This document shows, piece by piece, positions 3,329-38,561 of a DNA stretch of 38,561 nt. The translations under genes were made by a program, and so were the position numbers. Below the pieces are notes generated by a model that saw only the letters and a program-made list of their open reading frames with translations, had not been told where the DNA came from and searched no databases. The stretch comes from Chloroflexota bacterium (GTDB taxonomy: Bacteria; Chloroflexota; Dehalococcoidia; UBA2247; RBG-13-53-26). The stretch covers positions 1-38,561 of the forward strand of contig JAPLHP010000071.1 in the NCBI GenBank assembly GCA_026389585.1. Reading direction: 5' to 3'. Each line of letters opens with the position of its first letter. The stretch's first letter is position 1.

Positions 3329-4813
3329 ATGAGCTTGGCCGTGGACAGACTGCGCTGTGAATACAGGGAGAGTTCCCTGGGCATTGATGCCGTCAAGCCA
3401 AGGTTCAACTGGATTCTGCTTTCGGACCGCAGGAACACGACACAGGCCGCCTATCACATCCAGGTAGCAGCGAGCAAAGAGGCGCTGACGGAAGCTTCCA
3501 AGCTCGTCTGGGATTCCGGAGTGGTGGAAGGCGATTCCTCTATTTGGGTTGGTTATGACGGAGACAAGCTCGTCTCGTATCAGCGCTACTGGTGGCGGGT
3601 CAAGGTCCGGGGCAACCACAGAGAAGAGTCAGATTGGAGCCAGCCTGCCTGGTGGGAGATGAGCATATTGAGCCCTTCGGAGTGGACAGCAGAGTGGATA
3701 TCCCCTGATCTCGAGGAGAAGGATGAGGACAATCCCTGCCCTATGCTGAGAAAGGAGTTCTACCTTAAGGGAAAGGTCAATTCCGCCAGGGCCTATGTGA
3801 CGTCCCTTGGCCTGTATGAGATGGAAATCAACGGCAGGCGGGTGGGCGATGCGCGGTTCACTCCCGGCTTTTCAAGTTTCCACAAACGCCTCCAGTACCA
3901 GACATATGATGTCACAGACTACCTGCGGGAAGGCCAGAACGCCGCGGGCGTGTTCCTGGGGGACGGCTGGTACAGGGGCCACCTCTGGATTAAGGCGATA
4001 CCAAATGTCTTCGGCAAAGAACTGGCCCTTCTGGCGCAAATCCGTGTCGAATACAAGGACGGGACAATCGAGACGATAGGAACGGATAGCTCCTGGCATT
4101 GTACGACAGGTCCGATCCTCAGTTCTGACCTGTATTATGGCGAAGTCTATGACGCGCGCAAGGAGATCCCCGGCTGGTCGGAGCCCCGCTGCAGGTATGA
4201 CAAGTGGCGAGAGGTGAGGCGACTCGAATACAGCAAGGCGCACCTAGTTTGCTCACCCGGTGGGACGGCAAAGGTCAAGGAGGAAATGCAGCCCCGGAGG
4301 CTTCTCAGGACGCCCAAAGGCGAGATGGTAGTCGATCTGGGGCAGAACATCGCGGGTATTGTCCGGCTTCAAGTTGAAGGAGAAAGCGGGAGAGAGGTCA
4401 CGCTGAGCTACTGCGAGGAGCTGACGCCCGAAGGCAACTTCAATCCTGAACAGCTTGACCTTCTGGGCCACCAGAGAAGGGCGGGGCGCTTCTATCAGAT
4501 CGACCGGTATGTTCTGAAGGGTGGACCGGAGGTGATCGAACCGCGCTTCACTTTCCACGGATTCAGATATGTGAAGATAGAAGGCTACCCGGGAGAACTG
4601 GATCCGGGCAACATCAGAGGCCTGGTCATATACTCCGATCTGCCGGTTACGGGAGAGTTTTCCTGCTCCAATCCTCTCATCAATCAACTGCAGCACAACA
4701 TCCTCTGGTCTCAGAAGGGCAACTTCCTGGATGTCCCCAGCGATTGCCCCCAGGGGAGAAGATGGGCTGGACGGGGGACATTCAGATATACGCTCCGACA
4801 GCCTGTTTTCTAA
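3329..4813 (+). CDS. Alpha-L-rhamnosidase GH78, N-terminal part (frameshifted)
   Basis: This frame encodes the N-terminal beta-sandwich domains of a GH78 alpha-L-rhamnosidase, an enzyme releasing terminal rhamnose from glycosides and polysaccharides. It opens with the family-like LRCEY and KPRFNW pattern and reaches the start of the catalytic barrel at DVPSDCPQ, whose Asp is the expected general acid. After that the frame is lost: residues 477-494 are out-of-frame read-through. The correct continuation is the ORF from 4744. With one extra base in the G run at 4753-4756 the join would read DCPQGEKMGWTGD, the normal family motif. The whole repaired protein would have about 900 residues, normal for the family. 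The ATG at 3329 has GAGAGG upstream. No signal peptide is evident. Confidence 0.8.
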   Translation: MSLAVDRLRCEYRESSLGIDAVKPRFNWILLSDRRNTTQAAYHIQVAASKEALTEASKLVWDSGVVEGDSSIWVGYDGDKLVSYQRYWWRVKVRGNHREESDWSQPAWWEMSILSPSEWTAEWISPDLEEKDEDNPCPMLRKEFYLKGKVNSARAYVTSLGLYEMEINGRRVGDARFTPGFSSFHKRLQYQTYDVTDYLREGQNAAGVFLGDGWYRGHLWIKAIPNVFGKELALLAQIRVEYKDGTIETIGTDSSWHCTTGPILSSDLYYGEVYDARKEIPGWSEPRCRYDKWREVRRLEYSKAHLVCSPGGTAKVKEEMQPRRLLRTPKGEMVVDLGQNIAGIVRLQVEGESGREVTLSYCEELTPEGNFNPEQLDLLGHQRRAGRFYQIDRYVLKGGPEVIEPRFTFHGFRYVKIEGYPGELDPGNIRGLVIYSDLPVTGEFSCSNPLINQLQHNILWSQKGNFLDVPSDCPQGRRWAGRGTFRYTLRQPVF

Positions 4814-6266: not shown

Positions 6267-6341
6267 TGGTGGAGCTGGGGGGACTCGAACCCCCGACCTT
6301 CTGACTGCCAGTCAGACGCTCTCCCTCTGAGCCACAGCCCC
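6267..6341 (-). tRNA. tRNA-Ala (anticodon GGC)
   Basis: The minus strand folds as a complete cloverleaf: acceptor GGGGCTG/CAGCTCC including the alanine identity pair G3-U70, D stem GCTC/GAGC, anticodon stem TCTGA/TCAGA with loop CTGGCAG (anticodon GGC, reading GCC), T arm GGGGG-TTCGAGT-CCCCC, discriminator A73 and an encoded CCA. Length is 75 bases with CCA. It sits at one side of the restriction region; tRNA genes are common integration sites, but I found no duplicated 3' end nearby. Confidence 0.95.
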
Positions 6342-6572
6342 AAGTGCTAGATAGTTTACCAGAGTGTGCCCGTCTACTCAAGACGGACGGCAGTTACTTC
6401 ATACCTTGACGCTCTTTTGGCTTTGGATTTTAACTTAACGCATCTCCTGTGACCTTTCCCTACTTCTTTCTCTTTGACTTCCTCTTCCTCTCATAGTCTA
6501 GGCTGAGAACTACCCAGTCCCGGCCAAATCTCTCGCCAATCATAACCATTGAAACATAGGCTTTGATTCAAC
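6342..6572. other. Gene-free stretch upstream of tRNA-Ala
   Basis: This AT- and T-rich stretch separates the tRNA from the membrane-protein gene on the same strand. No ORF, clear promoter or hairpin terminator is seen. Confidence 0.4.
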
Positions 6573-7157
6573 CTATTTGTGTACTGACCTTCTGGTCTTC
6601 TCTTCCTTCTTGACGGACACCAGAGGCTGGGTCTCTGCTAGCCTCTCCCGTGGCCACAGGAAGAGACGATAGAAACCAAGCGTAGCGACAAGTATCATAA
6701 TGAGGGTCATAGCCGTGACCCATACTTCGGTAACCCTTGTTATGGTGAGGAGTGCTGCCCAACCTGCCATGCCAAAGCAATAAAACAACACAAAGCCACT
6801 GTGAAGGCTCCATAGAGTCTCCCAGGCTACTTCCATGCCCTTTTTCTCCTCCTCTCCTTCGACAAACCTGTGGTAGTCTCCCAAACCCAACTCGGCATCC
6901 ATCAACGTGCTGGCTACTCTGGAATAGCGCACGGACAGCACCCTCAGGGAGTGGTTTACGAAGAAACCAAAAAGGGACAACGACAACCCGAAGGCAGCTA
7001 GATACCAGTGCACCAGCCCTGTCCAGGCTATGATGCCCAGGAGTATTGCGAATATGCCAGCAGTGACGATGGTCAGCCACATCCGTGCGTTCTCATGGTG
7101 GCTTGCTTGTAGCCAGTATTGTCCAAAGGCCACGTAGGCGCTTTCCTCACGATTCAT
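6573..7157 (-). CDS. Uncharacterised four-helix membrane protein
   Basis: I do not recognise this 194-residue protein. Hydrophobic segments lie near residues 25-44, 48-67, 120-140 and 142-165, giving two helical hairpins. The soluble stretch between them is charged (GEEEKKG near 100-106), and the tail is basic (VKKEEKTRRSVHK). The start is well supported by AAGGAGATAAGAA before ATG. Two-hairpin membrane proteins of this size occur among possible effectors of bacterial defence systems (for example SLATT-type proteins), and the gene sits between a tRNA and a restriction gene pair, but nothing in the sequence proves such a role. Its shadow frame at 6568-7080 is not a gene. Confidence 0.65.
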   Translation of the reverse strand: MNREESAYVAFGQYWLQASHHENARMWLTIVTAGIFAILLGIIAWTGLVHWYLAAFGLSLSLFGFFVNHSLRVLSVRYSRVASTLMDAELGLGDYHRFVEGEEEKKGMEVAWETLWSLHSGFVLFYCFGMAGWAALLTITRVTEVWVTAMTLIMILVATLGFYRLFLWPRERLAETQPLVSVKKEEKTRRSVHK

Positions 7158-7352
7158 TTCTTATCTCCTTGTTAATGACTGGTGTACTGCCGAACCATTT
7201 CCGGTGATGTCTGTCCAGCCCCTTCCGGCTTGATTACTGTGATGCTGTAGATGAAGTCAATCTGCTCCCTCCGGAGTCAGCAAAGGCATTTTATAGAGGG
7301 TGATAGCCCCCGTCTGTTCTTGGAACGGCTTATGGCTTGTATGCCAGGATGC

Positions 7353-7664
7353 TCATTTGCGTTGATCTGGCTTCTCAGAGACTAGAGCAATCAGGCGTTC
7401 ATTATTCTTTGCAAGCAGGTAAGCAACTGCATGAGCACTGGCCTCCTGTAATACAAGGAGATCACGGATGACTTTCTTGACATCTTTTTCCTTTCTCATC
7501 ATTAGCCGTAGCTTGGCAAATTCCTTCCCCTCATCAGGAGTCTCGACATGTTGCCCTTCCTCCAAGAGTCTCTGTTCTATCTTATATTCGTTAATAGTTG
7601 CTTGCTGTAACTCAAGAAAAAGGTGATTGTGATCCAGAAGTTGTTTAGTTCTGGCGTCTGTCAT
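7353..7664 (-). CDS. Small charged helical protein of unknown function
   Basis: The chosen ATG at 7664 follows GAGGAGGGAAAAT, an excellent ribosome binding site; a TTG five codons upstream lies inside that site and is unlikely. The 103-residue product is hydrophilic and probably all helical, rich in Glu, Lys, Leu and Gln (for example LRLMMRKEKDVKKVIRDLL), without cysteines, membrane segments or a recognisable motif. It lies 195 bases upstream of the membrane-protein gene on the same strand. Function unknown. Confidence 0.6.
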   Translation of the reverse strand: MTDARTKQLLDHNHLFLELQQATINEYKIEQRLLEEGQHVETPDEGKEFAKLRLMMRKEKDVKKVIRDLLVLQEASAHAVAYLLAKNNERLIALVSEKPDQRK

Positions 7665-7680
7665 ATTTTCCCTCCTCAAA

Positions 7681-7881
7681 TCAAATCTGCCACACTATAA
7701 CACGTTGCACCGCTGGCGTGCCATCCCTGGAGCCTGGAAACACCGCCCACACGGGAGTGGCATCAGGCCGCTGATAGACAACTCCGTCTGGAGGAAGCCC
7801 TGGGAGGTACTCCCTTTGTATCCAGGCTGAGGTCAAGGTGCCTCTGAGAAGGTCGTGGGAATGCTGATGGACTATGAGCAA
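7681..7881 (-). CDS. Possible small ORF or gene fragment upstream of the helical protein
   Basis: A 66-codon frame with a TTG start and no clear ribosome binding site. Its TGA overlaps the ribosome binding site of the next gene, an arrangement seen in real operons. However, its first third overlaps a partial copy of a repeated promoter-like element (7815-7840), and the amino-acid sequence matches nothing I recognise. It may be a remnant of a longer gene or chance. Confidence 0.25.
   Translation of the reverse strand: MLIVHQHSHDLLRGTLTSAWIQREYLPGLPPDGVVYQRPDATPVWAVFPGSRDGTPAVQRVIVWQI
7815..7840 (+). repeat. Partial copy of the extended -10 promoter cassette
   Basis: TTTGTATCCAGGCTGAGGT resembles the left half of the elements at 9041-9080 and 38301-38341 but lacks the TATAAT half. 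It is probably a decayed copy. Confidence 0.5.
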
Positions 7882-7999
7882 GAGTGAGGGGCTAGGAGAA
7901 GGTAATCTAACTGCCCCTCAGTCGAAGTTGACATCATACAACCAAACTCACCGGCGACAATGCAACGCAGCGGAAAAGCGGTCACGGTGCAGCCCCATG

Positions 8000-8929
8000 C
8001 TAGATGCTTTCTTCGAAATAGTCCGCGTCTATCTTTTTTACTGGATAGAGCGAAACCGTCGATACACCGACGTCATGGTCGATCATTAGCTGGGATAACT
8101 GGTCGCCGTCAATCAAGACAATCTTACTTCCGATTTGAGAAACGTAGTTTCGGGAATCATCCGTGAATCTGGAGGTCGTGATGAAGATGCCTTTCGTAGC
8201 CTTTTGTGCCTGCAATGCGCCGGCAAACTGCATGACGTCAGGTCTGCCGACAGCATTGGTGTCCCAGCGTTTCGCCTGAATATAAATGACATCGAGACCA
8301 AGCTTGTCTTCTTTGATTATTCCATCGATGCCTTCGTCCCCTGTCCGTCCTATAGCCTTTCCTGCATCAGCACGCGAGCCGCCGTAGCCCATCTTCACGA
8401 GCAACTCGACAACGATCTGTTCGAAGAATGGCGGGGACGACTTCTTGAGCTTGGCAAGCAGTTCATCGACCAGCTCTTCGCGGAGATTCTCATAGGCAGT
8501 CTCAAGTGCCTCGGAGGGCGTAGCGGTTGACATGTCAGGGGGTTCCCTTGAAGCTTTCATCTTCTCACCACGGCGCGTTCCCTTGAGTTGCTGGAACACC
8601 TGGAATTCGGGATACCGCTTCAGCAGCTTAACGTTGATCTTCGCAGGGTTTGTCTTAAGGAGGTCTTGACCCCCCGGTGTGATTCGGAAGTAACCCCTGC
8701 GGGTGGGTTCAAGCAATCCAGCCTTCTTCATGTACGTCGTGGCCCATCCAACACGGTTAACGAACGTGCGTTGGACACCGCTCGGAAGCATTTCCTCTAG
8801 GTCCGCTTCGGTAAGACCCAGTTGGGTAGAAAGCGCATCAACTGCCTCATACGTTGAAATTTCCTCGTTTCGTGCTTCCGCGAATTGAAGCAACGGCAGC
8901 ATCAGACTCTGGTAGTCAGGGATCGCCAT
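8000..8929 (-). CDS. mrr: Mrr-type restriction endonuclease
   Basis: A 309-residue protein with the two-part layout of Mrr. An N-terminal winged-helix region spans about 1-95 (the Mrr_N pattern, with VGWATTYMKKAGLLEPTRRG). A C-terminal PD-(D/E)xK nuclease domain spans about 150-300, with the active-site pattern GIDGII near 199-205 and IQAKRW near 217-222 (D...QxK, typical of Mrr). Mrr proteins cut DNA carrying foreign methylation, so this is probably a type IV restriction enzyme. The start has AGAGAGGA upstream. The gene is divergent from an EVE-like/HNH nuclease 174 bases away, which suggests a shared defence role. No methyltransferase is present, as expected for type IV. Confidence 0.85.
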   Translation of the reverse strand: MAIPDYQSLMLPLLQFAEARNEEISTYEAVDALSTQLGLTEADLEEMLPSGVQRTFVNRVGWATTYMKKAGLLEPTRRGYFRITPGGQDLLKTNPAKINVKLLKRYPEFQVFQQLKGTRRGEKMKASREPPDMSTATPSEALETAYENLREELVDELLAKLKKSSPPFFEQIVVELLVKMGYGGSRADAGKAIGRTGDEGIDGIIKEDKLGLDVIYIQAKRWDTNAVGRPDVMQFAGALQAQKATKGIFITTSRFTDDSRNYVSQIGSKIVLIDGDQLSQLMIDHDVGVSTVSLYPVKKIDADYFEESI

Positions 8930-9040
8930 AGATCGTCCTCTCTTGTATCTTCTACTCTCTCTTATGCTACTGCACTAGCTGTGGGCATTCTAGCTCAGGC
9001 GATCCAAACAAGTCAACAAGAGCATCGTGCCGCTGCCCCC

Positions 9041-9080
9041 TCTGTATCCAAGCTGAGGTTGGGCTGGTATAATGTCGCAG
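9041..9080 (+). promoter_or_regulatory. Repeated cassette with extended -10 promoter (TGG-TATAAT)
   Basis: TGGTATAAT at 9065-9073 is an extended -10 element 30 bases before the HNH gene start. The surrounding 40 bases recur at 38301-38341 with about six differences, including one gap, again upstream of a gene start. The TGnTATAAT core is kept in both copies. Confidence 0.65.
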
Positions 9081-9103
9081 CAGAGAGATAGTGGAAGCAG
9101 TAG

Positions 9104-9901
9104 ATGAACACCTTCCTTTTCACATGGAATCCCGATAAGTGGCAATGGGATGACTTGCCTCAAGCTGTGTATGAGGCGAACGCAGAGGGTCGCTACCACG
9201 ATACTTGGAGTTGTGGGGCAACACGACACATCTCTCCTGGAGATCGAGCCTTCCTCATGCGTCTTGGTGTTCCCCCAAAGGGCATCATGGGTTCAGGGGT
9301 TATTGTGTCGGAGCCCTTTGAAGGTGTTCATTGGGATTCGAGGAGAGCAGAACGTGGAGACACTGCCCATCGTGTTGAGATTATTTTCGACGTCTTGAGT
9401 GATCTCCCAATACTAGATGAGAAAGCCTTGTCATCAGATGCGCTGGGCCAGCACAACTGGTACCCGCAAGCATCAGCTACTCGTATCCCCGAAAGTACTG
9501 CAGTGCAACTCGAGTCCATTTGGTCACGGGCAACCGGTCTAACCTTCAAGCCACCTGAGAGTGCTGGACTTCCCGGCTTGCGTCTTGAAGGCACAAAACG
9601 CAGCCAGATCATCACGACATACGAACGCAACCATGAGGCACGTGAAGAATGTCTCAGGCGCCATGGCAGAAGATGCCAAGTATGTAGCCTTGCGTTTGAG
9701 GAACGCTATGGCGCCATTGGGAAAGGATTCATTCACGTACATCACGTCGTCCCTGTTTCCGGAATTGGACAGGAGTATGAGGTAGATCCCGTCAATGATC
9801 TGAGCCCAGTGTGCCCGAATTGCCATGCAATGCTACACAAGCGAACGCCACCGTTGTCAATTCATGAACTGAAGAGAATGATCCAAGCCTCTGACGTTTA
9901 G
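9104..9901 (+). CDS. EVE-like/HNH modification-dependent endonuclease
   Basis: A 265-residue two-domain protein. The N-terminal region (about 1-150) starts MNTFLFTWNPDKW and resembles the EVE/PUA fold used to read modified bases. The C-terminal region is an HNH nuclease: Cys191 and Cys194 (CQVC), the HVHH motif at about 211-214 and CPNCHAMLH at about 237-245, a zinc-bound beta-beta-alpha-metal active site. EVE-HNH proteins are known as restriction enzymes against modified phage DNA. The gene is driven by its own extended -10 promoter and is divergent from mrr, forming a two-nuclease unit. The start ATG follows GTGGAAGCAGTAG, a weak ribosome binding site. The nuclease call is firm; the EVE assignment is by pattern only. 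Confidence 0.8.
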   Translation: MNTFLFTWNPDKWQWDDLPQAVYEANAEGRYHDTWSCGATRHISPGDRAFLMRLGVPPKGIMGSGVIVSEPFEGVHWDSRRAERGDTAHRVEIIFDVLSDLPILDEKALSSDALGQHNWYPQASATRIPESTAVQLESIWSRATGLTFKPPESAGLPGLRLEGTKRSQIITTYERNHEAREECLRRHGRRCQVCSLAFEERYGAIGKGFIHVHHVVPVSGIGQEYEVDPVNDLSPVCPNCHAMLHKRTPPLSIHELKRMIQASDV

Positions 9902-10137
9902 GTTGAGCGGATGGGGTCCCACCTCTTGAATGCTTGCTCCACCAGCGCCTTGCAGACCTTCAGACTATCCTCGACTGTCACCGAGCGCGTGTACCTCTGC
10001 ACCATCTCCAAGCTTTCCCATCCCCCAAATCCTTGATGGTCATAATGATCTGTATACCCCCTGAAGTTGACTCTCCAGACATTGGTTCCCTTCGGTTGGA
10101 ATTTGGCCAGCCACGCTCCGAGATACTGTGCTGACAT
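9898..10137 (-). pseudogene. C-terminal remnant of a tyrosine recombinase (integrase)
   Basis: This 79-codon frame contains GWESLEMVQRYTRSV, typical of the end of tyrosine recombinases, where the W of the final helix motif and the catalytic Tyr are conserved, followed by the usual EDSLK tail. The Arg, Lys and HxxR parts of the active site, normally about 100-150 residues earlier, are missing, so it cannot be active. The upstream 40 residues are not recognisable. It overlaps the end of the HNH gene by four bases, and suggests the restriction pair arrived on an integrating element. Confidence 0.65.
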
Positions 10138-10182
10138 AGCACCAAAGGGTGCACAAGCCGTTTATCTGCATGGTTCTTGATC

Positions 10183-10191
10183 TGTTATAAT
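10183..10191 (+). promoter_or_regulatory. Extended -10 promoter (TGT-TATAAT) for sppA
   Basis: TGTTATAAT ends 24 bases before the sppA ATG; a ribosome binding site (AGGAGA) lies between. No clear -35 is seen. Confidence 0.5.
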
Positions 10192-10215: not shown

Positions 10216-11004
10216 ATGAATATGCCACTAGGGACAGGGATCGGTGTCTGGGAATTATTCGGCCCTATAAGCGGTACCGGCAGGTTGAGGGATTACACGA
10301 ATGCGATCGAAGGTTTGAAGAATAGCCGCAGGATCAAGTCGGTTATCATCAATGTAGATTCGCCGGGGGGGCTGGCTACGGCTTCTAATGGCCTCTACTG
10401 CGCCGTTTCGAGGCTGTCGGCCAAGAAGCCGGTTGTGGCCTTCGTCAGCGGGACCTGCGCCTCGGGTTCCTACATGGCAAGCTGTGCTGCCACCAAGATT
10501 GTAGCCCTCCCCACAGCGGTGGTGGGGTCAATAGGCGTCCTCTCTGTCAGGCCCATATTGCAGGACTTGCTGAACAAGGTGGGTATCCACGTTGATGTCA
10601 CCAAGAGCGGCCGCCTGAAGGATATGGGTGGTTTCTACCGGGAGCCGACTGAAGAGGAGAAGAGGAAGGAAGAGGAGCTCATCACTGGCTTTTACAACTA
10701 TTTTGTCTCGGTTGTGGCTAAAGGCCGGAAGATGGATGAGGGTAAAGTGAAGGAACTGGCCACGGGAGAGGTTTTCCTGGGAGAGAAGGCCAAATCTCTG
10801 GGGCTTATTGATGAAGTGGGTGATTTTGACGTGGCCGTTGACCTGGCTGCTGATTTAGGCAAGGTGGCGCGCCACCTTATTCCGGTCAGACGGCGGTCCA
10901 GCTTGTCTGAAAGGCTTTTCTTGAGGTTTGCCGGTACTGCGCCTGAGGATTTCATAACTGCAGCTGAGTCTTTGCTCAGCCGCCGCATCTATTATCGCTC
11001 CTGA
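10216..11004 (+). CDS. sppA: S49 family serine peptidase, SppA-like (short form)
   Basis: A 262-residue signal-peptide-peptidase A homologue with a Ser-Lys dyad. Ser83 lies in CASGSY and Lys135 in GRLKDMG; the 52-residue spacing matches that recalled for Bacillus SppA. DSPGGLA near 50-56 and VGSIGVL near 110-116 are typical oligomer and substrate-groove segments. Unlike many SppA proteins it has no N-terminal membrane helix, so it may be cytoplasmic or peripherally bound. The ATG is preceded by AGGAGA and an extended -10 promoter. It converges on the B-box gene and is probably a single-gene unit. Confidence 0.85.
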   Translation: MNMPLGTGIGVWELFGPISGTGRLRDYTNAIEGLKNSRRIKSVIINVDSPGGLATASNGLYCAVSRLSAKKPVVAFVSGTCASGSYMASCAATKIVALPTAVVGSIGVLSVRPILQDLLNKVGIHVDVTKSGRLKDMGGFYREPTEEEKRKEEELITGFYNYFVSVVAKGRKMDEGKVKELATGEVFLGEKAKSLGLIDEVGDFDVAVDLAADLGKVARHLIPVRRRSSLSERLFLRFAGTAPEDFITAAESLLSRRIYYRS

Positions 11005-33776: not shown

Positions 33777-35510
33777 ATGGGTATATTGATCACCGATACC
33801 ACGCTTCGTGATGCGCACCAGTCGCTGATAGCTACGCGAATGCGCACCAGGGATATGCTTCCCATAGCCGAGAAGCTCGATAAGGTGGGCTTCTTCTCCC
33901 TCGAGGTATGGGGCGGGGCTACATTTGATTCCTGCATCAGGTTCCTGAATGAAGACCCCTGGGAGCGCCTGAGAGCGTTACGGGCAGCGATAAAGAATAC
34001 ACGCCTGCAGATGCTGCTTCGGGGGCAGAACCTTGTTGGCTACCGCCATTACCCTGATGATGTGGTACGGGAGTTCGTTCGCCTCTCAGTGAAAAATGGC
34101 ATTGATGTCTTCCGCGTATTTGATGCCCTCAACGACATAAGGAATCTGGAATTTGCCATAAAAGTGGCGAAAGAGTATAAGGCGCATGTTCAGGGCACTA
34201 TCTGCTATACCATCAGCCCGGTGCACACTGTGAAAGGCTTTGCCGATATGGCAGAAAAGCTGGAGCACCTGGGTTGTGACTCCATCTGCATAAAGGATAT
34301 GGCCGGGCTGATTGCGCCGGCGGCGTCTGGCGAGCTGGTCAGGGCCATCAAGACCCGAGTGAAGGTTCCTGTTGACCTCCACTCGCACTGCTCCAGTGGG
34401 ATGGCGCCTCTGAGTTACCATGCTGCGGCCCTGGCCGGTGTTGATATTTTGGATACTGCTTTCTCCGCTTTCGGCTGGGGAACGTCTCAACCAACCACCG
34501 AAAGTGTGGTCGCTGCTCTCAAAGATACTCCTTATGACACCGGGTTGGACCTCGGTTTACTCTACGATATAGGTGAGTATTTCGCTGCCGTAGGCGCAAA
34601 GTACAAGGCTTTGTTTACCGGTGAGGCAACTCGTCCCAATCTCAACGTCCTCCTCCATCAAATACCGGGAGGAATGCTTTCCAGCCTGGTGAGCCAGCTC
34701 AGTGAGCAGAACGCTCTGGACAGATTCGATGATGTCCTGAAAGAGGTTCCGCATGTGCGGGCCGATCTTGGTTACCCCCCGCTGGTAACCCCCACAAGCC
34801 AACTGGTGGGGATACAGGCGGTATTGAATGTGCTGGCAGGTCGGCGCTACAGTAAAGTGACTCAGGAGGTCAAGAATTATCTCCTCGGCCAATATGGCAG
34901 ACCGCCAGGTAAGGTGAATGCTGAGGTGAGGAAAGCGGTCACAGGTGATGAGAAGCCCATCAGTGTTCGCCCTGCCGACCTCCTGGAGCCTGAGTTGGAG
35001 AAGTTGCAGCAGGAGGGGCGCAAGCTGGGTATCCTCAGGCAGGAGGAGGATCTGGTTACCTATGCCCTCTATCCTCAGGTAGCGGTCAAGTTCCTGCGCG
35101 GTGAACTAAGTGAGGAGACGTTGCTGACTGTGCCTGCGCGAAGCAAGGTTCCGAACGTTCTGGACATTCCTTCGGAGTTCAGTGTGGAGGTGGATGGCGA
35201 GACCTTCACCGTCAGGATAACCCCTGTGCTCAATGGTAATGGTGGGGTACGGGTGGGGAAGGCAGAACCATCACAAAGACCGTCTCGGGATGCTGTGATC
35301 TGCCCAATGCCTGGGATGATAGTCGCCGTGAAGGTCAAGGTCGGGGATAAGGTGAGAGAGGGTGATGTGGTAGCGGTGCTTGAAGCCATGAAAATGCAGA
35401 ATGAGATACATTGCCCTCACAGCGGGGTGGTGAAGCAGGTTATGGTTCATGATGGTGATCTGGTGAAATTCAACGCTGTTCTGATGGTAGTGGAGAGGGA
35501 TGGGAAATAA
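33777..35510 (+). CDS. Carboxyltransferase-biotin carrier subunit (PycB/OadA-like)
   Basis: A 577-residue protein with three parts. A DRE-TIM carboxyltransferase barrel (about 3-265) shows DTTLRDAHQS, the catalytic Lys in CIKDMAG and metal ligands in HSHCSSG. A conserved PYC/OADA domain follows (about 285-440). A biotinyl domain (about 505-574) has EAMKM with biotinyl-Lys539. It moves carboxyl groups from biotin to pyruvate, or the reverse. No sodium-pump membrane subunits (oadB, oadG) are near; instead a biotin carboxylase gene overlaps its end, so a two-subunit pyruvate carboxylase is the best reading, supplying oxaloacetate. Weak ribosome binding site GTAGGTG. Confidence 0.9.
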   Translation: MGILITDTTLRDAHQSLIATRMRTRDMLPIAEKLDKVGFFSLEVWGGATFDSCIRFLNEDPWERLRALRAAIKNTRLQMLLRGQNLVGYRHYPDDVVREFVRLSVKNGIDVFRVFDALNDIRNLEFAIKVAKEYKAHVQGTICYTISPVHTVKGFADMAEKLEHLGCDSICIKDMAGLIAPAASGELVRAIKTRVKVPVDLHSHCSSGMAPLSYHAAALAGVDILDTAFSAFGWGTSQPTTESVVAALKDTPYDTGLDLGLLYDIGEYFAAVGAKYKALFTGEATRPNLNVLLHQIPGGMLSSLVSQLSEQNALDRFDDVLKEVPHVRADLGYPPLVTPTSQLVGIQAVLNVLAGRRYSKVTQEVKNYLLGQYGRPPGKVNAEVRKAVTGDEKPISVRPADLLEPELEKLQQEGRKLGILRQEEDLVTYALYPQVAVKFLRGELSEETLLTVPARSKVPNVLDIPSEFSVEVDGETFTVRITPVLNGNGGVRVGKAEPSQRPSRDAVICPMPGMIVAVKVKVGDKVREGDVVAVLEAMKMQNEIHCPHSGVVKQVMVHDGDLVKFNAVLMVVERDGK

Positions 35511-37353: not shown

Positions 37354-38151
37354 GTGCAGTACAAGAACATCGTCCTGGAGAAAGAAAAACATGTTGTCAC
37401 CCTGATGTTCAATCGCCCTGAGAAAATGAACACCATTTCGATGGAGATGAGGGAAGAGATAGTCGAGGCGTTCAATGAGGTGAATGCGGATGATGATGCC
37501 CGCGTGTTCGTTCTCACCGGTGCCGGAGAGCGCGCCTTCTGTGCTGGTGTCGATGTCGGGGTGATGTCGGCCCGCATTGCTGGGCAGGTGGAGGAGACGA
37601 ACCGCCGTAAGCTCACCCAGCGAATAGGGTGGCACATACCGCGGTTGAGGGAGATGCGAACGCCGACCATAGCGGCTGTCAATGGTGTGGCTGCAGGCAT
37701 GGGCGTATCTTTCATAACGGCGTGCGACATCAGGATAGCCTCGGACAAATCCCGGTTTACCTGTGCCTGGGTGAACAGAGGGTTGGTTCCTGACGGCGGG
37801 GTGACCTATCTTCTGCCTCAGATAGTGGGCATAGAGAAGGCCCTGGAGCTCTTCTATACCGGGGACATTATTGATGCCCCGGAAGCCCTGCGAATTGGCC
37901 TGGTGGGCCGTGTTGTTCCTCAGGCTGATCTGATGAAGGTGGTCAAAGAGCTGGCTGAAAGGATAGCTGCCGGGCCGCCCATTGCCCATGAAATGGCGAA
38001 GTACGGAGTGTATAGAGGACTGGAGAGTGACATTAAAGGTACCCTCGACTTTGAAAGCTATGCCGTGAAGGTGTGTACGGCCACCGAAGATTTCAAAGAG
38101 GGAGTGAAGTCCTTCGTCGAGAAGCGAAAGCCTGAGTTCAAAGGACGCTAG
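37354..38151 (+). CDS. Crotonase-family enoyl-CoA hydratase/isomerase-like protein
   Basis: A 265-residue crotonase fold protein acting on acyl-CoA thioesters. The oxyanion-hole segments are FCAGVDVGVM near 62-71 and GVAAGMGVSF near 111-120; NRGLVPDGGVTYLLP near 141-155 is the family active-site loop. The two glutamates that hydrate enoyl-CoA in classical hydratases appear replaced (Ser119 and Val140 at the expected places), while an Asp in VPDGG is kept, so isomerase or another crotonase chemistry is more likely than hydration. The start is GTG behind GAAGGAGG, an excellent site. It stands alone, ended by a strong terminator. Confidence 0.85.
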   Translation: MQYKNIVLEKEKHVVTLMFNRPEKMNTISMEMREEIVEAFNEVNADDDARVFVLTGAGERAFCAGVDVGVMSARIAGQVEETNRRKLTQRIGWHIPRLREMRTPTIAAVNGVAAGMGVSFITACDIRIASDKSRFTCAWVNRGLVPDGGVTYLLPQIVGIEKALELFYTGDIIDAPEALRIGLVGRVVPQADLMKVVKELAERIAAGPPIAHEMAKYGVYRGLESDIKGTLDFESYAVKVCTATEDFKEGVKSFVEKRKPEFKGR

Positions 38152-38218: not shown

Positions 38219-38300
38219 AGCTAACCAGCTAACCAAGGATTAGAACTACTCCGGTTTGCCTGAGTAGGAGTCTTCCAGGGCACGTTGAAAGATCAAGCCC

Positions 38301-38341
38301 TTTGTATCCAAGTTGAGGTTGGGGTTGATATAATGTCGCAG
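38301..38341 (+). promoter_or_regulatory. Repeated cassette with extended -10 promoter (TGA-TATAAT)
   Basis: This is the second full copy of the element at 9041-9080. The TGATATAAT core at 38326-38334 stands 51 bases before the gene starting at 38386 and just downstream of a terminator, so it is well placed to drive that gene. Confidence 0.65.
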
Positions 38342-38385: not shown

Positions 38386-38561
38386 ATGCGGGACTACGTC
38401 AAACAGTGCATGACAGACTACCTGGAATCGGGCTGGAGAAATGCTATGCGGTACGAACGAGACAAGAAGGCTGTGCGACGTGGGACAAAAGCCTTGCTCG
38501 AACTGACTACTGAAAAGGGGTGTGGAGCCTGGGTCTCTGGCAAAGAGATCAGGGCTCGGGC
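38386..38561 (+). CDS. Unknown gene, 5' part only (runs off the window)
   Basis: The ATG at 38386 follows GAAGGAGGAATT, an excellent ribosome binding site, and the frame stays open for 58 codons to the window end. It begins MRDYVKQCMTDYLESGW and continues hydrophilic with many Arg, Lys and Glu. I recognise no family. It is preceded by the repeated extended -10 cassette also found before the HNH nuclease gene, so it may be another accessory gene. Confidence 0.6.
   Translation, partial: MRDYVKQCMTDYLESGWRNAMRYERDKKAVRRGTKALLELTTEKGCGAWVSGKEIRAR

Follow-up and report, generated by a model that had tools for sequence, protein, structure and literature searches.

We found that a repeat in the window, the whole 38,561-nucleotide stretch that we analysed (contig C71 of a 1.93-Mb genome in 103 contigs), is probably a recombination-site joint between small mobile gene units that are exchanged site-specifically in the genomic islands of one bacterial family. 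We read it as a joint between mobile units that carry a promoter, and not as the operator of a regulon, because its copies lie head to tail, because their flanks are shared on one side, and because a 0.47-kb unit recurs. In this model, a unit would begin with the TTGR behind one core (the invariant part of the repeat), contain a promoter and, as a rule, one or a few accessory genes, and finish with the next core; this terminal core would often be preceded by the tail of a recombinase gene. Site-specific recombination would swap units at the right edge of the core or immediately after it, between GCTGAGG and TTG. A joined gene would either bring its promoter or land right behind one, and would thus be expressible where it lands, with transcription of the incoming gene from the promoter at the joint.

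The sequence CCCTCTGTATCCAAGCTGAGGTTGGGCTGGTATAATGTCGCAG occupies positions 9038-9080 of the window and has a second copy at 38298-38339, with about six differences including one indel. These are the two copies of a roughly 40-base repeat that a sequence-only reading had placed at 9041-9080 and 38301-38341, and the repetition of the left half, reported at 7815-7840, was likewise borne out, at 7812-7837. No match to the repeat appeared in 100 dinucleotide shuffles of the window. The extended -10 elements described before gene starts are present as well, 30 bases from the ATG at 9104 and 51 bases from the ATG at 38386. The 40-base element is thus a real repeat, but it has two components, a 25-base core that is invariant and a segment to its right that varies independently and is a class 1 promoter, a class 2 promoter, or neither.

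Features of the window that bear on the repeat and its two loci
Feature	Positions	Strand	Remarks
tRNA-Ala(GGC), intact	6267..6341	-	far end of the inserted island
Core, left part conserved	7810..7833	+	right side degenerate, promoter absent
Mrr-type (type IV, methyl-directed) restriction enzyme gene	8000..8929	-	cargo gene between two cores
Core, full copy	9036..9061	+	CCCCTCTGTATCCAAGCTGAGG-TTG; exchange presumed to the right of GAGG, at 9058/9059
Extended -10 promoter, class 1	9065..9073	+	TGgTATAAT, upstream of the HNH gene
HNH endonuclease gene	9104..9901	+	cargo gene; Pfam PF01844, residues 191-247
Relic of family-1 tyrosine-recombinase gene	9935..10161	-	...GGWESLEMVQRYTRSVTVEDSLKVCKALVE
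S49 peptidase gene	10216..11004	+	conserved right neighbour of the island
Enoyl-CoA hydratase gene	37354..38151	+	conserved; adjoins the second full copy on its left
Core, second full copy	38296..38321	+	after a terminator-like hairpin 3' of the enoyl-CoA hydratase gene
Extended -10 promoter, class 1	38326..38334	+	TGaTATAAT
Unknown cargo gene, start	38386..38561	+	cut by the contig end

Further copies are plentiful. The genome of the window holds roughly 50 copies of the 25-base sequence. A genome-wide search with its 21-base pattern gave 42 matches at three mismatches or fewer, and the reversed pattern, used as a control, gave none. Among 100 relatives, we found the core in G008 (45 copies), G006 (9), G001 (5), G002 (5), and G009 (1), and it was absent from G003, G004, G005, and G007. 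Within this set it is almost confined to the same Dehalococcoidia family; one distant member of the class has a single match with 2 mismatches. A scan of 393 genomes of the class found the core in five, all from this family, and none of the 383 genomes outside the family carried it at 2 mismatches in that scan. Exact core matches in named records come from Dehalococcoidia and Chloroflexi bins (for example, RBG_13_53_26), and one contig of a viral collection carries the core. We considered a wide host range and rejected it: exact 19-base matches in Chromatiales and Aphanothece bins come without the flanking consensus, and by our own estimate their number is about the chance expectation in 257 Gb. 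A search of the open literature returned no description of the sequence or the system.

A weight-matrix scan of loci fetched from six genomes gave 109 sites, compared with a single match in shuffled sequence, which barely exceeded a more permissive cut-off of 10. The genomes are all draft metagenome bins, with open reading frames called by simple rules. Because the loci were picked around core copies and recombinase genes, the counts of tails and neighbors given below are not genome-wide. In contigs C4, C23, C55, C70, C71, and C75, several ends lie about 200-240 bases from a core, possibly because units are repeated or because the population varies at these joints.

Across the 109 aligned sites, the invariant part is CCCCTTTGTATCCAAGCTGAGG-TTGR and has sharp edges: conservation is high from CCCTTTGTATCC through GAGGTTG and drops steeply on both sides. 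The core contains CCAA-GCTGAGG-TTGG, in which two inverted arms enclose seven bases, a layout that would fit an exchange site of a tyrosine recombinase. Behind the core, about 40 sites (class 1) have TGnTAnAAT, in most cases at a distance of 8-10 bases from GAGG and frequently in the form TGGTATAATGTCGCA. Another 23 sites (class 2) have GTTGACA, which includes TTGACA, and a -10-like sequence frequently follows some 17 bases later; the remaining sites have neither. The first right-hand gene shares the strand of the site at 31 of 39 class 1 sites, 15 of 22 class 2 sites, and 20 of 41 others; promoter-bearing sites differ in this from the rest (46/61 versus 20/41, Fisher p ~ 0.01). A promoter behind the repeat that reads into the next gene, as a mobile promoter would have it, is thus a feature of classes 1 and 2 and not of the remaining sites, about half of which face a gene on the opposite strand. 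Same-strand genes start a median of 71 bases from the site, and the right-hand promoters mostly read into accessory genes of unrelated families.

This last result bears on the proposal of a shared regulon site, in which the core dyad CCAAGCTGAGGTTGG would be the operator of one regulator and its conservation would be regulatory. The dyad is conserved and overlaps promoters, and the class 1 spacing is nearly fixed, as such a site would have it. However, the genes downstream do not form one family, the cargo has no common function, many cores have neither a promoter nor a gene in the right direction, and the core travels with the upstream unit. We consider a regulon highly improbable.

Two arrangements beside the cores are worth recording. 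In L135 (C65:16358-16444), the core is fused to a copy of tRNA-Gly(CCC) that lacks its first seven bases, and the tRNA D-arm TGGTACAAT occupies the place usually taken by the class 1 promoter. To the left of three cores (window 8990-9025, L041 at about 8395-8425, and L144 at about 3610-3640) is a motif, CAGGCGATCCAA...GTCAACAA, which on the other strand reads TTGAC-N18-TAnnAT, a likely divergent promoter (that of the Mrr gene in the case of the window). Apart from tRNA pieces, no Rfam family was found at the sites.

The flanks also point to mobile units. Comparing the 300 bases to the left and right of all sites, we found 50 site pairs that share the left flank, 30 that share the right flank, and 1 that shares both. 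The segments C52:3694-4166 and G006 C16:13803-14269 are one 0.47-kb two-site unit, 85-88% identical at both ends, which sits between different neighbors in the two genomes; G006 belongs to another genus. Three patterns place the core within this arrangement. C24:14239 and C35:10185 agree in their left flank and carry the same rare core variant, and their right sides differ. C52:4166 and G006 C16:14269 have a common variant (AAGATGAGG) and show the left-flank pattern of the C24/C35 pair. Finally, the right sides of C4:8414 and C55:241 are 98% identical, and their cores are no better matched than those of random pairs. From these patterns we conclude that the core is part of the left unit and that exchange occurs at or just behind its right edge, a crossover position that is approximate and not base-exact because the informative pairs are few and the bases behind GAGG vary. 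Since core variants follow the left unit and flank sharing breaks at the core, the core marks where one mobile unit closes and the following one opens, and the promoter would belong mostly to the latter. Homologous recombination between short repeats, or illegitimate recombination, is a possible alternative to site-specific exchange.

The order and content of the units fit this arrangement. Adjacent sites within 6 kb of each other point in the same direction in 50 of 56 cases (binomial p ~ 1e-9), that is, head to tail, and are separated by a median of 1.18 kb. The 77 cargo proteins match 85 Pfam families, none of which occurs in more than 4 proteins, and include nitroreductases, dehydrogenases, a D12 methyltransferase, and the Mrr enzyme of the window. 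In these draft metagenome bins, we saw no circles, no excision, and no base-exact empty joint.

Both loci of the window can be compared with relatives. In G006, where the locus is uninterrupted, 140 bases separate the S49 gene from tRNA-Ala, compared with about 3.8 kb in the window. The island, roughly 6388-10184, contains two cores, the Mrr and HNH enzymes, and the recombinase relic, which includes a 3' tail (about 9938-9968) that recurs elsewhere at unit ends. At the same place, G001 has an intact family-1 recombinase gene, one further gene, and a core. At the other locus, the enoyl-CoA hydratase gene has clear orthologs (66-88%) in 8 of 9 relatives, none of the nine has the DNA after the second full copy, and the relatives with a readable flank have other genes after the hydratase. 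Judged by these sequence comparisons, both window loci are strain-specific insertions.

These results can be set against the idea of a mobile promoter, according to which a core with its class 1 promoter, together about 42 bases, would hop before genes and switch them on while carrying no genes itself. Part of that claim of the sequence-only reading stands: many copies lie before unrelated accessory genes, and promoter-like sequence, as in the core with TGGTATAATGTCGCA, follows many of them at nearly fixed spacing. Yet the repeat is not mainly a promoter that hops before genes. Rare core variants follow the left unit, one right-hand unit is found behind different cores and behind bare tails, and only about 40% of cores have a class 1 promoter. 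Moreover, the window genes behind cores are themselves new to their locus. In a comparison that was systematic for the two window loci, where the genes are absent from relatives, we met no conserved gene that has the element upstream in one genome and lacks it in another. We regard a mobile promoter as quite unlikely.

The left side of the cores points to the recombinases. Many cores have on their left CACCAGCGCCTTGTAGAACTTCAGGCTGTC, whose reverse complement forms the 3' terminus of a tyrosine-recombinase gene (family 1), the protein of which ends in ...RYTRSVTFEDSLKFYKAPLG. This family-1 tail, a 36-base antisense copy of the gene 3' end, is found left of 37 of 108 sites, compared with 0 of 540 shuffles; about two thirds of the sites are without it. 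The tail is a dispersed repeat, in which some copies are followed within a few bases by a core and some by the body of a recombinase gene, and about 30 copies adjoin neither and have sharp edges on both sides. The same gene start lies behind a core in one place and behind a bare tail in the other (G008 C123:881 and C66:3444). A second recombinase family, with the protein end TDAPCDHLGLKG, leaves similar tails. Its genes occur only in the two genomes with the most cores, and family-1 genes occur in 6 of 6 genomes with cores and in 1 of 4 without. We rejected the possibility that a third recombinase gene has its 3' end in the core, as no recombinase in the fetched loci ends there.

The family-1 protein has an N-terminal HTH and a phage-integrase domain. 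Several of its genes start directly behind or inside tRNA genes, as in tRNA-targeting tyrosine-recombinase islands; one splits a tRNA-Ala at the anticodon loop, and a recombinase gene adjoins a tRNA at six loci. The repeated joint differs from such islands in that it is not a tRNA fragment and occurs both inside and outside tRNA islands. Accordingly, a tRNA-adjacent gene and an uninterrupted locus in a relative are found for the recombinase genes but not for every core. We infer that the exchange of units is site-specific and enzymatic, and infer its enzyme and chemistry in the same way. The likeliest enzyme would be a tyrosine recombinase, of either the tRNA-linked family 1 or family 2, because copies of the 3' end of either gene are found, in antisense, where units end and because genes or relics lie beside the sites, including in the window. 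By association, we put the chance that one of these two acts on the units at about even.

The tails also invite a further model, which we hold to be doubtful: the units would be integron-independent cassettes, each with its own promoter and ending in the recombinase-gene 3' end and the core, such that the 3' end of the recombinase gene is the insertion point and each cassette restores the C-terminus. Insertion at this 3' end with the C-terminus restored by the incoming tail is an attractive but unproven extension. The family-1 gene beside the site in G001 ends in its own tail variant (SDAMKFYKGPLG) and not in the variant found at unit ends, which counts against restoration of the C-terminus. 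Alternatively, the tails and cores could be scars of whole islands that arrived one after another, left by repeated insertions at the 3' end of a recombinase gene that each unit once had, or by deletions, with no exchange of small cassettes today. It is consistent with scars that tails outnumber intact recombinase genes, that recombinase genes are broken in this genome, and that intact genes in G004 and G006 have a second, displaced 3' end next to them, even where cores are absent. Random decay, however, would not be expected to end the tails sharply about 36 bases from the stop codon, and a recombinase-free unit is common to genomes in which its neighbors differ. We judge scars to be unlikely. 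A tail with its core may be a composite that formed once, or the outcome of several insertions at one position.

Integrons are the standard example of collecting single genes into arrays. The units described here resemble integron cassettes, and arrays of these without an integrase (CALIN), in that they are small, lie head to tail, contain one or a few diverse genes, and have a site at the 3' end with GTT at the presumed crossover. In a CALIN the repeat would be the 3' half of attC, and at tail-bearing sites AACTTCAG can indeed pair with CTGAGGTT. Nevertheless, IntI was not found: in ten draft family genomes, the best TIGR02249 score was 88 bits against a cut-off of 265, from ordinary Xer-like genes, although this absence is not absolute because the genomes are drafts. 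Folding of attC arms was not supported either, as untailed sites have no complementary left arm (z = +0.16, n = 71), complementarity is weak at tailed sites (z = -0.48, n = 37), and arm covariation is absent (p ~ 0.5). The left arm, where present, is instead the 3' end of another gene, that of the tRNA-linked recombinase. Units here also start with promoters, and many sites are single or in short runs at many loci. Because two tested defining features fail, we do not class the system as an integron despite its integron-array-like working, and we find a CALIN very unlikely.

We consider the ssrA islands of Dehalococcoides to be the nearest described relatives in style. These islands contain tandem accessory modules with short direct repeats, some modules having no integrase, and the 3' end of the integrase gene overlaps the attachment site; they have a CcrB-like serine recombinase, target the tmRNA gene, contain 20-base repeats of its 3' end, and have a multi-gene integration set (PMC3146451). 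Shared with the present system are the bacterial class, the tandem modules, the short repeats, and the integrase 3' end at the attachment site. The present system differs in having tyrosine recombinases, tRNA loci, a 25-base core, 36-base tails, and much smaller units at many loci, and Rfam gave no tmRNA match in the window or in five array loci. SEs likewise move by tyrosine recombinases outside integrons and ICEs, but they are several kb in size and have four common coding sequences, two of them recombinases, a set that we did not see in the units here. The XerC/D pdif modules of Acinetobacter are found on plasmids and have 28-base dif-like sites, often in alternating orientation. They too are small gene modules bounded by short recombinase sites, but the sites here lie in loci of chromosomal bins, point in one direction, and have a different consensus. 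If our model is true, a second such system in Dehalococcoidia, without an integron integrase or folded attC, would mean that array-style gene gain evolved more than once. It would also show how these mostly uncultured bacteria come by genes for defence and metabolism that have a promoter in front of them on arrival. With the joint sequence, such units can be located in metagenomes of the Dehalococcoidia group.

Several loci show recombinase remnants in other arrangements. Family-2 genes are broken in the genome of the window at L050 (C12:16558-17480) and L053 (C11:35161-35445), and an intact copy is present in G008 C123. Displaced recombinase 3' ends lie just behind intact family-1 genes in G004 (C69:10560-10650, L248), a genome without any core, and in G006 (C112:920-1000, L192). 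At L141 (C26:14300-17990), five tails in the same orientation lie within 3 kb and one core at the end, forming an array delimited by tails. At L145 (C11, about 34824-34885), tails of both families are stacked and directly adjoin the left part of a core behind them, as though successive events had struck one point. Finally, in G002 (C207:1611, - strand, L187), a core lies 24 bases behind the 3' half of a tRNA, as if at the end of an island.
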